Position numbers and translations under genes: made by a program
Notes under the pieces: model-generated
Seen by the model: the letters and a program-made list of their open reading frames with translations, nothing else
Told to the model about the DNA's origin: nothing
Databases searched by the model: none
Part shown: one piece after another, positions 4,785-49,663 of the stretch
Layout of the letters: every line of letters starts with the position of its first letter
Numbering within the stretch: position 1 is the first letter of the stretch
Assembly (NCBI RefSeq): GCF_026248685.1
Contig: NZ_CP111036.1
Coordinates: 2,356,001-2,420,000 of the forward strand
Source: Haladaptatus caseinilyticus
Lineage (GTDB): Archaea; Halobacteriota; Halobacteria; Halobacteriales; Haladaptataceae
Length of the DNA: 64,000 nt
Direction: 5' to 3'

Positions 4785-5471
4785 ATGGGCGCCCAACTCG
4801 ATACGCGAGAGGCACAGTTGGATGAAATCCTCGATAGGTTGTACGACGAATATCCCGACGCGACCATCTCGCTCAACTTTTCAAACCGGCTCGAACTGCT
4901 TATCGCGGTGATGCTCTCGGCGCAATGTACCGACGAGCGCGTAAACAAGGAGACCGCGCACCTGTTCGAGAAATACCAGTCCCCGGAGGACTACGCGAGC
5001 GCCGATGTTGACGAACTCGCCGAAGATCTGAACTCCATCACCTACTACAACAACAAGGCGAAGTGGATCAACAGCGCCTGCCGAACTATCATCGAGGAAC
5101 ACGACGGGGAAGTGCCGGACACGATGCGCGAGCTGACCGACCTGACCGGAGTCGGGCGAAAGACGGCGAACGTGGTGCTCCAGCACGGCCACGACGTGGT
5201 CGAGGGAATCGTGGTCGATACGCACGTCCAACGACTGTCGCGACGGTTGGGATTGACCGACGAACAGAGCCCGCAGAACATCGAATCCGACCTGATGACG
5301 TTCGTCCCCGAGGCGGACTGGCAGTGGTTGACTCATCTGTTCATCAGCCACGGACGCGCGACCTGTACCGCCCGCAGTCCGGACTGCAAGGGGTGCGTGC
5401 TCGAAGATATCTGCCCGTCATCGAAGGTGGACAACGACATCGACCTCGCCAGCGGCGAGGCGTGGAACTGA
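4785..5471 (+). CDS. nth: Endonuclease III (DNA glycosylase/AP lyase)
   Basis: 228 residues. It has the HhH-GPD fold: the helix-hairpin-helix LTGVGRKTANVVL contains the catalytic lysine (K126), and VDTHVQRL contains the catalytic aspartate (D145). A C-terminal 4Fe4S loop follows with Cys194, 201, 204 and 210 (C-x6-C-x2-C-x5-C). The enzyme removes oxidised pyrimidines and cleaves the abasic site in base-excision repair. All key residues are present and the length is usual for the family. It is a single gene between two minus-strand membrane proteins. Confidence 0.95.
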   Translation: MGAQLDTREAQLDEILDRLYDEYPDATISLNFSNRLELLIAVMLSAQCTDERVNKETAHLFEKYQSPEDYASADVDELAEDLNSITYYNNKAKWINSACRTIIEEHDGEVPDTMRELTDLTGVGRKTANVVLQHGHDVVEGIVVDTHVQRLSRRLGLTDEQSPQNIESDLMTFVPEADWQWLTHLFISHGRATCTARSPDCKGCVLEDICPSSKVDNDIDLASGEAWN

Positions 5472-21713: not shown

Positions 21714-22754
21714 ATGGACGAAGCTGACGTTCGAGACCTTCTTCGAGAGATCGAAGACCCAGACCTCGGCGAGGACATCGTTTCGCTCGGAATCGTGAAC
21801 GAAATCACGGTCGAGGACGGACTAGCACGAGTCTCCCTTGCACTCGGCGCGCCGTACGCACCCCACGAAACCGAAATCGCAAATCGCGTCCGCGAAGTGC
21901 TCGGTAGCGAAGGAATTGACGTCGAACTCTCCGCCCGTGTCGATAGCCAGCATTCACCCGAAGAACAGGTACTTCCGGGTGTAAAAAACATCATCGCTGT
22001 CGCCTCCGGAAAGGGCGGCGTCGGAAAAAGTACCGTCGCCGTCAATCTCGCTGCCGGTCTCTCCAAGCTGGGTGCCCGCGTCGGTCTATTCGATGCCGAC
22101 GTGTACGGGCCGAACGTGCCACGAATGGTCGCCGCCGACCAGCGCCCTCAAGCGACCGAGGACGGGAACCTCGTTCCACCCGAGAAATTCGGCGTGAAGC
22201 TGATGAGCATGGCGTTCCTCGTCGGCGAGGACGACCCCGTTATTTGGCGCGGTCCGATGGTTCACAAAGTTCTCACCCAACTCTGGGAAGACGTGGAGTG
22301 GGGGCAACTCGATTACATGGTCGTCGACCTTCCACCCGGAACTGGTGATACACAACTCACACTCCTCCAAAGCGTTCCGGTTACCGGCGCGGTTATCGTC
22401 ACGACCCCACAGCAGGTCGCCCTCGACGACGCACAGAAAGGACTTCGAATGTTCGGCAAACACGATACCCCCGTCCTTGGCATCGCCGAAAACATGAGCT
22501 CGTTCAGATGTCCGGATTGTGGCAACGAGCACGACATCTTCGGACACGGCGGTGGTGCGGCATTCGCCGAAGAACAGGACATGCCGTTCCTCGGTGGGGT
22601 CCCCCTCGACCCTGCTGTTCGAACCGGCGGTGACGAAGGAACACCCATCGTTCTCGATGAGGAAAGCGAAACCGGTGACGCGTTCCGTGTGCTGACCGAA
22701 AACGTCGCCAACAACGTCGGGATTATCAACCGCCGCAGACAAAGCCAGGAGTAA
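21714..22754 (+). CDS. mrp: Mrp/NBP35-type iron-sulfur cluster carrier ATPase
   Basis: 346 residues. Residues 1-80 form a MIP18-like (DUF59) domain (LREIEDPDLGEDIVSLGIVNEI). The deviant Walker A VASGKGGVGKSTVAVNLA follows (about 98-115), then FDADVYGPN and DYMVVDLPPGTGD. The FRCPDCGNEHDIF segment carries the C-x2-C used for dimer-bridging cluster binding. It transfers Fe-S clusters to apo-proteins in the cytosol. Three bases separate it from the small gene downstream. Confidence 0.93.
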   Translation: MDEADVRDLLREIEDPDLGEDIVSLGIVNEITVEDGLARVSLALGAPYAPHETEIANRVREVLGSEGIDVELSARVDSQHSPEEQVLPGVKNIIAVASGKGGVGKSTVAVNLAAGLSKLGARVGLFDADVYGPNVPRMVAADQRPQATEDGNLVPPEKFGVKLMSMAFLVGEDDPVIWRGPMVHKVLTQLWEDVEWGQLDYMVVDLPPGTGDTQLTLLQSVPVTGAVIVTTPQQVALDDAQKGLRMFGKHDTPVLGIAENMSSFRCPDCGNEHDIFGHGGGAAFAEEQDMPFLGGVPLDPAVRTGGDEGTPIVLDEESETGDAFRVLTENVANNVGIINRRRQSQE

Positions 22755-22757
22755 GCG

Positions 22758-22985
22758 ATGGCGAGCGACACCGAATCGTTCGAACCGAACTCCGAGCGAG
22801 TTGAAATCCTCCGCGAAATCGCGGACGACATCCGCGGGGTGAGTAGCGAGAGCAAACTCGTCGCCGCGATACTCTACCGAATCAGCGACCTCTACGATCC
22901 CGACGAGGACACCTCTCCCAAGGATATCTATATCAATATGCGGGAGATTATTCGGACGAAAGAGGTCGGGGGGAAAGGAAAATAA
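22758..22985 (+). CDS. Small acidic helical protein downstream of mrp
   Basis: 75 residues, helical, with LREIADDIRGVSSESKLVAAILYRISDLYDPDED. It starts three bases after the Mrp stop and so is part of that operon. I recognise similar small haloarchaeal proteins next to mrp but no function. It ends where the AT-richer block begins. Confidence 0.7.
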   Translation: MASDTESFEPNSERVEILREIADDIRGVSSESKLVAAILYRISDLYDPDEDTSPKDIYINMREIIRTKEVGGKGK

Positions 22986-23008: not shown

Positions 23009-23955
23009 TCAGTGTAGTCGGCGAACGATGGCGAGTACACTGAGCAGGGAAAACAGGGGGTACGCGATTGGAATCCCCATGAGTTCGTTCCCTCCACTGA
23101 TTTTCTCGCCAAAACTTCGAGCGTACGTGTCGTTTTTGTACTGATAATGGTTCTCCATCCAGGTTGGCCGAGCGGGCTCGAATGTTTCGTTCCATGTCTT
23201 CGTTCGCTCGCCCGCTTTCCCAACGAATCCCACTTGATCGACGCCGGTTTCCCGTTTCGTGAGGTTTCCCGTATAGAGCCGTGCTTCACCCGCTATTTTC
23301 GTCCCGTTCTGGTCCAGAAGTTCCACTTCTATCGTCCGCGTCTCACCCGGTGGGGCGGAAGCTGGATAGAAGCTACCGTCCGTACCCATCGTGTGAACGA
23401 ACAATTTCGTCGGATACGTCTGAATCGATGGGTTGGCCACTGTTACGTAGGCAACCGCGGATTGCTCTCCATCTATCGTTCCATTGTCCACGCTGACATT
23501 TTTGATATATAGCGTCAGAACTTCCGGTGACTTCGATGCATCGATCTCCTTGGTGAAATTGTAGGTCGTATTGTCCCCGAACGTCGAGACGTAAACGGAG
23601 TGGTTGTCTTGGAAGGCGTAGAGGTCTTTAGTGATGTTTATTTTTCGTGTGAAGGATTCTCCAGGGTGTAAGTTGAATAGTTTTTCATGAACCTCATAAT
23701 CATCCGTTGAAATTAGTACCGCCGAGTTTTTCACATATTTTGGAGTAGGATTACTCACGACTAAATTCATTTTTCCATTTCCGAAATATGACTCCACACA
23801 CACACACCCTGAAATGACTGAATCACTCTAACTTTGCCATTTTTAGAGATAGGACAGTCAGAATTGTTAGTATTAATAGCGTTAGCGCTTCCAGGAACGA
23901 CCGATAGAGATAAGATAATGAGGACAATACATGTCGAATATATTTTTCTTCTCAT
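23009..23955 (-). pseudogene. Exported surface-type protein split by a frameshift at a TG repeat
   Basis: The 5' part (23955 to about 23809) encodes a clear signal peptide (MRRKIYSTCIVLIILSLSVVPGSANA), about 50 residues, then runs through (TG)6 to a stop at 23767. The 3' part, in another frame, is open from just upstream of the repeat to 23009: about 260 residues of beta-rich, Asn/Thr-rich sequence ending in a membrane helix (PIAYPLFSLLSVLAIVRRLH). Losing one TG unit, or gaining one base, joins them into a protein of about 310 residues. This may be a real inactivation, phase variation, programmed frameshifting or a sequencing error. It starts 39 bases after the stop of the 1,119-residue surface protein. 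Confidence 0.7.
23795..23806 (-). repeat. (TG)6 microsatellite inside a coding region
   Basis: On the minus strand GGG(TG)6GAG. The reading frame of the signal-peptide part and that of the body of the protein meet exactly here. Confidence 0.9.
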
Positions 23956-23994: not shown

Positions 23995-26900
23995 TTAATT
24001 ATAACAGTGCAACTTTCCCGTACAATTGTTTTCTGTACCGTTGTTGCGGTCTCTGAGTCTATTTTTGATTTCTGACTCACTCAGAAGGTTCTGATACGAC
24101 ACGTCTACTGTCTTAGAGCCGATGGTTTCGTTTTTGATGGTATCATCACTGACGTATTGTTTGGTAATGTCTATACCGGCAGTTGCGTACGTGGTGACGA
24201 CCGTATCGCCTTCGAGATAGGTGTCAACGGTGGTCGTCTCCGTACCGGTTGATTTCCGCATGCTCCACTTGATGTTCGCACCATAACGACCGATTCGCCA
24301 ATCGTCGGCAGCGGTGAGGGATTCCACCACCTGCCGGTCAGTCGTTGTCATCTGTTTTTGCCATTCGTATTCGGCATCGCGCACTTTCTCCCGTGTTTTC
24401 ACTTCGTATTCACGAACGATGGCAGTGTGTTCTTGCTGATACTTGTACAGATACTGTGTCTGGTACTTTGCACCGCGGACTTTCACTTTCCGTCTGTTTC
24501 CAGTAAACCTGTGATCCCATCCGAGTTTCTGATATGCCCAGTACGTCTCAGTGCGAGTAACTGTATAAGTGTACGTTTCCGTCGTCGTGTACGTTTTTGT
24601 GACCGTCGTCGTGTATGTATAGGTTTTCGGAACCTCCCAACAGATGCCATACAAGCCACACTTTGTGACGTACATCGTATCCGTTTTCGTTACCTCGACA
24701 TCCCTTGACTTGGTGACGGATCTTGTCCCGGTTTTTTGAACATCGTACTCGTATGCATACTGCTTTTCCGTCCGGTACAGTGGTGGTTCGGTCTGGACAC
24801 GGCGAGTTTGTCCAGTGAACGTTCCACTACCTCGTTTCGAATCACGCCACTCCTTTTCGATGGTCGTCCACGTCCGCTTTTTACTTTCGTGCCCTGCTGA
24901 CCACCAATCGGGATGTGTTTGAAGAAAAGCGGAATGTTCGAGCTTCGTGGCGAACGTCTTTGACCTCGTTTCGTACTCCGCATCACGAACCTTGATTCGC
25001 TCTTCGAGCGTGTACTCGAAGCCGTCACGTGTCTTGTCTGCGATGGAATAGCCGTTGCGAAGAAACCGATCCCGTTTTTTTGATGAAGTCGCGAGCTTCC
25101 AACCATAGGTCGGTCGCCTAATCAAATATTCCGTGTTTTCAATGGAAATATTTGTCCAGATAGTCCCATACCGCCGATACACTTCGAGATTCGGGATTGC
25201 CGCCTCTTTCCACGTTGTTGGATCCTGCTCGTTAAATACTCGAATCCTCGAATTTTCCGTAGCCTTCGCTAACTCCGACGCCCTAATCTCAATGATACCG
25301 GAGTATCTTCTCGGGCTACCTGGCTGACTCTTGTCATCATTCTCTTTACTGACTTGTTTTTTCCACTTGACAACGTCACTGGACACTCCACTGGTGGTGA
25401 TACCTAAGCCAAATTGATTATGATAAGAATTCTTCGTAAACTCATACCACTCGGTCGTTACTCGGAGGCGAACCGTATCATTTGGCTTGTATGGACCGCT
25501 CGAGAGCTCCTTGATATCGCGTATCGGCGGTGAGTACTTTTCAAGATAGTTGAATTGTTTCGAGGTCGTGAGATCGTGGCCATCCTCGAGTCGGAGTCTC
25601 GCAAAGTGAACGGAGCTAAATTTCCCCGTCTTGTTGTCCGGTGTAATGGGCTCCGCACCCAGTTCCCAATAGTACTTGAGCTTTGTTCCATCGGGGTCAA
25701 AGGAATCGCTTGCGTCTACGACGATTCCCCAGTTCCTCGGTGAGTGGTACCCTGTTCCATCATTGGTTACGTCAACTCGGAGTTCTGGTGGGCTTGGTTT
25801 CACTCGTAAAATAGATTTTCGTGTTTCCTGTATATTTTTTGCAAATTTAGATATCATTATCTGGTGTGATATGCTGTATTCTTTAGGCTTTTTTGCAGTC
25901 CAGTATGAATCCAAAACCAGAGTATCATTTTGAATGGATCTGTCGTATGATCCAATCATGTGGACATCATGTTCCTTATTAATATTTCTACTAATAATAT
26001 CAATATTTTCTGCATCAACACCATTCAAATCAATTTTCAGAACATGATGTGCTGTATACCGCTCCGGATCGATTCGTTCGTGGTAAGAGTCCACGGGACC
26101 GTTGACAAACCCTGATTCGATGATTTCCGGCTCTTTGGCGGGAGTAATATTTCTCTCGAAGACCGTCTTTTGTCCACGAGCATCGACGCCGATCACCGAT
26201 ATAGTATACGACTTTCCAGATTCGAAATCGGAGTAATCGAAGGTCGAAACTTGGCGGCGCTGCATTTCTCCAGGAACACCATCCATCCGTGTGCGGCCGA
26301 TAACCGAACCACCAAGCCTGACAGTTATCGACTGTAGATTTTCATATCCATCAGTCGCGGTAGCACGCCCGGAAACGGAGCCATAGTTATCGAGTGATGA
26401 CAGTTCGACTGAGGGTTTTGGATCCGCAGTGACCGTCGTCGATCCGCCAGAAAAACGAGCAATATCACGAGAGTTGTCGGAATACGTGACGACAGCATAG
26501 AGTGAGTGGTCACCTGGCTGCCAGTTCATCGATAATTCACGTCCGTTTCCGAGTTGTTTGGCGTCACCGAACCAGCTAATAGAGCGTAGTTGTCCCGAAC
26601 TAGCGGCGGACTGCAAGTTGTAGGTTCCTCGGAGTGGAGTAGATCCAGTAATAAGCTCGTCACCAACAATGTTTGGAGCGTATTGGTCAGCGAGCATGTT
26701 TCGAGGAGGGATATTTTGCAACGGTTGCACCGAAATATCGAACGTATCGGTTTCCGATTGTCCATCCGAATCGTACACGGTGGCAGAAATAGTTCGTGAA
26801 CCCGCGTTCGCGAACGTTCTAGTAATCGTATCCGAAGCGTGCCCCCCCGACACCGGATGCGTGGCAATCCTCGAACCATCGATATTCCAAACGATTCGGT

Positions 26901-27354
26901 CCAAGGGTGCCGCACCGGCTTCGATAGTTGCTGAGTAGACTCGTTGTTCACTGACTCGAGGTTGTTTAGAACCGGAGACGCTAACCGAGGGTTCCACACC
27001 TGGTGAAACGGACACGAACAGCGAGTCATGGCTGCTCGCACCATCTTCGTCGGTTACGGTCACAGAAACCGTGTATGTCCCAACTGAAGTCGGACGAAAC
27101 TGTGTCCGTGGACACGTTGGACAGTCGGGAGCGATCGTCTGCCCGTCCGGTGTCGTAATCGACCATTCGAAATGCTCGATCTCCCCATTGGGATCGTACG
27201 ATTCGTTTGCATTGAGGAGTACAGTCGCCCCTCGCGCAACCTCTTGGTCGAGTCCAGCATCAACAAGCGGTGGTTCGTTCGCCGCCGTTAACGACGGAAC
27301 AAACGAAGGCGTGAGTAACAGAAGTATGAGTATACCAGTAGCGGCTCGAGTCAT
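23995..27354 (-). CDS. Large exported PKD-domain surface protein with Tyr/Thr/Lys-rich C-terminus
   Basis: 1,119 residues. A signal peptide (1-25, ending TAA) is followed by a PKD domain (about 27-117: PLVDAGLDQEVARGATVLLNA, SYDPNGEIEHFEW), further Ig/PKD-like units (about 120-410) and another near 550-640 (VDASDSFDPDGTKLKYYWELG). The last 350 residues are rich in Tyr, Thr, Lys and Arg, with runs such as KTYTTTETYTYTVTRTETYW and repeated RDAEYE/RGAKYQ units. There is no obvious C-terminal anchor or sorting signal. Base composition is AT-richer, and the protein is less acidic than neighbours, suggesting transfer. A TATA-like TTTAAAGTATAAGG (27375-27388, minus) lies 25 bases upstream, so it is leaderless. 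Role in cell surface or adhesion is inferred. Confidence 0.8.
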   Translation of the reverse strand: MTRAATGILILLLLTPSFVPSLTAANEPPLVDAGLDQEVARGATVLLNANESYDPNGEIEHFEWSITTPDGQTIAPDCPTCPRTQFRPTSVGTYTVSVTVTDEDGASSHDSLFVSVSPGVEPSVSVSGSKQPRVSEQRVYSATIEAGAAPLDRIVWNIDGSRIATHPVSGGHASDTITRTFANAGSRTISATVYDSDGQSETDTFDISVQPLQNIPPRNMLADQYAPNIVGDELITGSTPLRGTYNLQSAASSGQLRSISWFGDAKQLGNGRELSMNWQPGDHSLYAVVTYSDNSRDIARFSGGSTTVTADPKPSVELSSLDNYGSVSGRATATDGYENLQSITVRLGGSVIGRTRMDGVPGEMQRRQVSTFDYSDFESGKSYTISVIGVDARGQKTVFERNITPAKEPEIIESGFVNGPVDSYHERIDPERYTAHHVLKIDLNGVDAENIDIISRNINKEHDVHMIGSYDRSIQNDTLVLDSYWTAKKPKEYSISHQIMISKFAKNIQETRKSILRVKPSPPELRVDVTNDGTGYHSPRNWGIVVDASDSFDPDGTKLKYYWELGAEPITPDNKTGKFSSVHFARLRLEDGHDLTTSKQFNYLEKYSPPIRDIKELSSGPYKPNDTVRLRVTTEWYEFTKNSYHNQFGLGITTSGVSSDVVKWKKQVSKENDDKSQPGSPRRYSGIIEIRASELAKATENSRIRVFNEQDPTTWKEAAIPNLEVYRRYGTIWTNISIENTEYLIRRPTYGWKLATSSKKRDRFLRNGYSIADKTRDGFEYTLEERIKVRDAEYETRSKTFATKLEHSAFLQTHPDWWSAGHESKKRTWTTIEKEWRDSKRGSGTFTGQTRRVQTEPPLYRTEKQYAYEYDVQKTGTRSVTKSRDVEVTKTDTMYVTKCGLYGICWEVPKTYTYTTTVTKTYTTTETYTYTVTRTETYWAYQKLGWDHRFTGNRRKVKVRGAKYQTQYLYKYQQEHTAIVREYEVKTREKVRDAEYEWQKQMTTTDRQVVESLTAADDWRIGRYGANIKWSMRKSTGTETTTVDTYLEGDTVVTTYATAGIDITKQYVSDDTIKNETIGSKTVDVSYQNLLSESEIKNRLRDRNNGTENNCTGKLHCYN

Positions 27355-49645: not shown

Positions 49646-49663
49646 GTGTGTGTGTGTGTGTGT
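49646..49663. repeat. (GT)9 dinucleotide repeat between the two HalOD1 genes
   Basis: Eighteen bases of pure GT, 18 bases after the stop of the first HalOD1 gene. Not inside a supported gene. It is the longest simple repeat seen in the window. Confidence 0.95.

Follow-up and report, generated by a model that had tools for sequence, protein, structure and literature searches.

In the window, that is the whole stretch of 64,000 nucleotides of Haladaptatus caseinilyticus that was analysed, the reverse strand between positions 23955 and 23009 (947 nt) carries one gene that is read in two frames, as judged from its open reading frames and from comparison with orthologues (Table 1). The 5' part, or head, opens with a signal-peptide-like leader, runs through a dinucleotide repeat and continues out of frame up to its stop. 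The second part, or body, lies in a frame that is open for 272 codons, the protein ending in GIPIAYPLFSLLSVLAIVRRLH. The original prediction described a leader frame and an anchored body frame that meet at GGG(TG)6 and are joined when one TG unit is removed. Both ORFs agree with this, the frames being offset by 2 nt, which is one TG unit, and the orthologues being read in a single frame.

The tract codes for V-C-V, and the Cys in the middle is conserved across the genus. No (TG)6 arose by chance in 100 dinucleotide-preserving shuffles of the window. Since the tract makes up about 1.4% of the gene, an indel placed exactly within it indicates slippage, either in the cell or in sequencing. Where the head stops, its stop codon shares bases with an ATG that is in frame with the body (ATGA).

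The product is a putative surface protein by inspection of its leader-like start and C-terminal hydrophobic anchor; the signal peptide and the membrane helix were called by eye and from their conservation in orthologues. Sequence searches against Pfam, NCBIfam and PDB assigned this protein to no family, and its AlphaFold2 model, made from a two-row alignment, was unusable (mean pLDDT 38.8). The gene starts 39 nt downstream of a partner gene with a PKD domain. The same two-gene arrangement is found in relatives, where the two genes are present together or absent together. Of the two synteny markers that follow, the 75-aa gene had no match in Pfam or NCBIfam, and the other was named from motifs and general knowledge as what we take to be an ApbC/Mrp P-loop ATPase.

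Table 1. Features of the interrupted gene and its neighbours (window positions)
Feature	Position	Strand	Description and basis
Presumed ApbC/Mrp-like P-loop ATPase gene, synteny marker	21714..22754	+	sequence motifs
Convergent neighbour, synteny marker	22758..22985	+	conserved 75-aa gene
C-terminal hydrophobic anchor, basic end	23009..23077	-	sequence (GIPIAYPLFSLLSVLAIVRRLH); kept in orthologues
Body ORF	23803..23009	-	264 codons from GTG inside repeat; no other lesion, normal constraint
(TG)6 tract, site of frame break	23795-23806	-	context CAGGG(TG)6GAG
Head ORF, 5' part	23955..23767	-	signal-peptide-like leader and first mature residues; 62 codons, begins MRRKIYSTCIVLIILSLSVVPGSANA
Upstream partner gene, PKD domain	23995..27354	-	1119 aa; Pfam PKD models

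Orthologues and age of the frame break

Orthologues were searched for in 59 genomes, the family comprising 28 genomes including the window's own. Unbroken, single-frame orthologues are present in 22 of the other 27 family genomes, seven of them within Haladaptatus. These are about 310-355 codons long with no stops, and share a hydrophobic N-terminus and, within the genus, a CP..SFxGVC region. They read through both parts unbroken and so confirm a single gene in the window. The joint in congeners reads ..SFQGVCIES.., with ..FQGVC[IV]ES.. as the ancestral form, and is encoded by codons such as GGA GTG TGT ATT GAA or GGT GTC TGT GTC AAA. The window frames match the congeners on either side of the tract, which indicates a 2-nt gain (a +2 frameshift) in the window copy.

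None of the seven congeners has the repeat at the joint, and no dinucleotide run of at least five units was found in the intact orthologues. The repeat is therefore new in this lineage and confined to this species. Moreover, no orthologue was found to share the frame break.

Body dN/dS between the window copy and close congeners is 0.11-0.14, and most intact pairs give 0.09-0.17. The terminal branch leading to the window copy measures 0.27, which lies close to the summed paths of the sisters from the same fork, about 0.21-0.26 (0.14 in one sister). The body has no second lesion, neither a stop nor a further indel. Thus the relaxed selection or extra lesions by which frameshift pseudogenes are recognised were not found, dN/dS and branch length being normal. 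A body that is normally constrained and free of lesions means that the break is recent, that the gene switches, or that the break is not real. The synonymous sites are near saturation, so that the age of the break is bounded only loosely.

Losses of the operon and small indels elsewhere

The two-gene operon has met different fates in the relatives. In G002 and G027 the operon is almost completely deleted: all that survives is a C-terminal remnant of roughly 43 codons, and the full partner gene is absent, the other side of the site being occupied by what we read as a 2-oxoacid:ferredoxin-oxidoreductase-like gene. Neither operon gene was found in G017, and G025, among the 28 family genomes, is an incomplete assembly. 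In G009 the orthologue is cut by an ISHma6-like (IS5) insertion (L024 1-130 and the end of L164): the 34 adjoining residues share 97% identity with an IS5-like transposase of the ISHma6 family, a terminal repeat is common to both contig ends, and the 11-bp target GTGAACCAAGA is duplicated. In H. litoreus CGMCC 1.7737 (G006) the partner gene is about 8 nt shorter close to its 3' end than in G003 (L045, about 5150-5213) and finishes in a different frame; this indel is not at a repeat. As the operon was repeatedly lost or broken by different, mostly irreversible events, we conclude that it is dispensable.

A second gene broken at a dinucleotide tract was observed outside the window. This small gene with a TDGHTRAF motif (G000:C1:2572644-2572899, G000 being the window's own genome; L132, L163) loses its frame exactly at a (CA)10 tract (G000:C1:2572739-2572758) and carries a further 1-nt deletion downstream of it. 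The orthologues in G005 (L145) and G006 (L144) have a +2 shift at the corresponding run of alternating CA/CG and showed no further lesion; five congeners and many other haloarchaea have an intact gene. A site shifted in three species points to dinucleotide gain as a recurrent mutational route in the genus. This supports slippage as the cause at (TG)6, and does not thereby show a switch.

The background of frame breaks was surveyed in 400 kb around the window, where 197 genes (174 kb) conserved between G003 and G006 have orthologues in this genome. Genuine indel breaks were found in two of the 197, the surface protein gene and a gene that we take to be DHH/TrkA-like (G000:C1, about 2265105; L053). 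The latter has one extra base, lying outside repeats and after an N-terminal hydrophobic segment (TTTCGGTACGTTGCG), and is otherwise intact. Two of the four candidates of the survey proved false, one being an overlap with an upstream gene and the other an indel that lies before the start of an rpl7ae-like gene. Break candidates were similarly few in G003 and G006. Small indel breaks are normal background, and their low number, comparable with that in related assemblies, indicates a good assembly, though an error is possible at a single site.

The whole genome has four TG/CA tracts of at least six units, the (CA)10 above being the fourth. A (GT)9 at window positions 49646-49663, shortly past the stop of a 116-aa gene, looks intergenic, as does a tract on contig C5. 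Most of the other TG tracts of the genome and genus that were checked as candidate switches look intergenic as well. A close relative carries an unusually long (TG)20, apparently also intergenic (G003:C1:124913-124952; L156).

The window's genome has complete open frames for MutL, for two MutS proteins and for NucS, and a mutator status was rejected because these families are intact, leaving no obvious mutator. In one congener mutL appears to be split over two frames (G001:C21:521830-523766).

Explanations of the frame break

The interrupted gene is probably a recent loss-of-function allele, produced by slippage, in a surface-protein operon of two genes that is dispensable. In this species the conserved V-C-V codons would first have been turned into a (TG)5 run by point changes, and strand slippage would then have added one TG unit, as a shift of exactly +2 at this site suggests. 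As the sequence stands, translation ends some 36 residues beyond the leader, and no anchored protein is made. Reversal through loss of one unit is chemically possible, as at any short repeat, with no sign that selection favours it or that it happens often. What counts against this reading is that it comes from a single assembly, that a switching gene would be just as likely to keep its body under unchanged constraint, and that a TG tract within a surface protein gene could be special when the tracts elsewhere are mostly intergenic. The likelihoods that we attach to this and to the three other readings are judgements.

It is unlikely, though worth considering, that the break is a sequencing or assembly error and that the real genome is one TG unit shorter, with the gene intact. 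A fully conserved, lesion-free body would be expected in that case, short repeats are error-prone, and a further conserved gene in the vicinity carries an insertion of one base for which no explanation was found. Against an error, (TG)6 is short for most sequencing platforms, and that insertion is the only other indel break in the survey, a number comparable with those in related assemblies.

The original prediction proposed a contingency locus. We consider an evolved switch of this kind, with slippage at the TG tract toggling the surface protein at a high rate, improbable, even in a genus where recurrent dinucleotide slippage alters frames. In its favour, the repeat lies early in the coding region of a putative surface protein gene and a change of one unit alters the frame, as in phase-variable loci mediated by simple sequence repeats. 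The body is still under constraint, and dinucleotide gain recurs at another gene of the genus. The six units of the sequenced tract just reach the lower cut-off of PhasomeIt for dinucleotides (at least six), close to the minimum length at which tracts are taken to vary, and the in-frame form, with five, would fall below it; tracts above these cut-offs may still mutate too slowly to switch (PMC6321876). Related genomes were not found to retain the repeat at differing lengths, none of the orthologues having the tract. The mismatch repair genes are intact, and measurements in the haloarchaea Halobacterium and Haloferax gave low indel rates (3.6-4.8e-11 per site per generation; PMC9997560). In addition, the same operon was destroyed in relatives by unrelated means, namely an inserted IS, a deletion and an indel outside any repeat. 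Thus the part of the original interpretation that stands is that of one gene broken by slippage at a repeat in an archaeon, most simply by gain of one TG, and the part that does not is phase variation; the plain pseudogene and the sequencing error, which it had named as alternatives, are together much more likely.

Expression despite the break, by reinitiation at the overlapping ATGA at the head's stop or by ribosomal frameshifting at the repeat, is very improbable, as no orthologue has the break, programmed sites being expected to be conserved in homologues (criteria in PMC3711429), and a reinitiation product would be without the leader.

On the preferred reading, a loss-of-function allele, the gene is an example of how short repeats yield such alleles in dispensable surface genes. 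If the tract really switches, the gene would stand as an early example of archaeal phase variation at the level of translation, driven by slippage at a repeat. Phase variation in archaea was described in a 2025 review as an area still to explore (PMC11868660). Such a switch would bear on how haloarchaea vary their surface proteins, possibly against viruses. The tract length is known from one assembly, from which phase variation cannot be established.

Comparison with known systems

Bacterial contingency loci based on simple sequence repeats, such as Haemophilus hif with (TA)9-11 and the repeat genes of Campylobacter and Neisseria, resemble the window gene in that gain or loss of repeat units alters the frame or expression of a surface gene. 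The window tract differs in being shorter, restricted to one species and known in one state only. In haloarchaea phase variation is known from the virus phiCh1, whose protein variants arise by DNA inversion, in contrast to repeat slippage at the window gene. The likeness to phiCh1, as far as the citation of that work in PMC7230728 conveys it, is that a protein of surface interaction varies. A further parallel is with the GeneTack scheme, where isolated, non-conserved breaks with intact homologues are assigned to pseudogenes, hypothetical pseudogenes or errors (PMC3711429). The window gene likewise has a break in a single genome, intact homologues and a non-conserved site, and it differs from slippage-derived frameshift pseudogenes in having as yet no decay beyond one indel.
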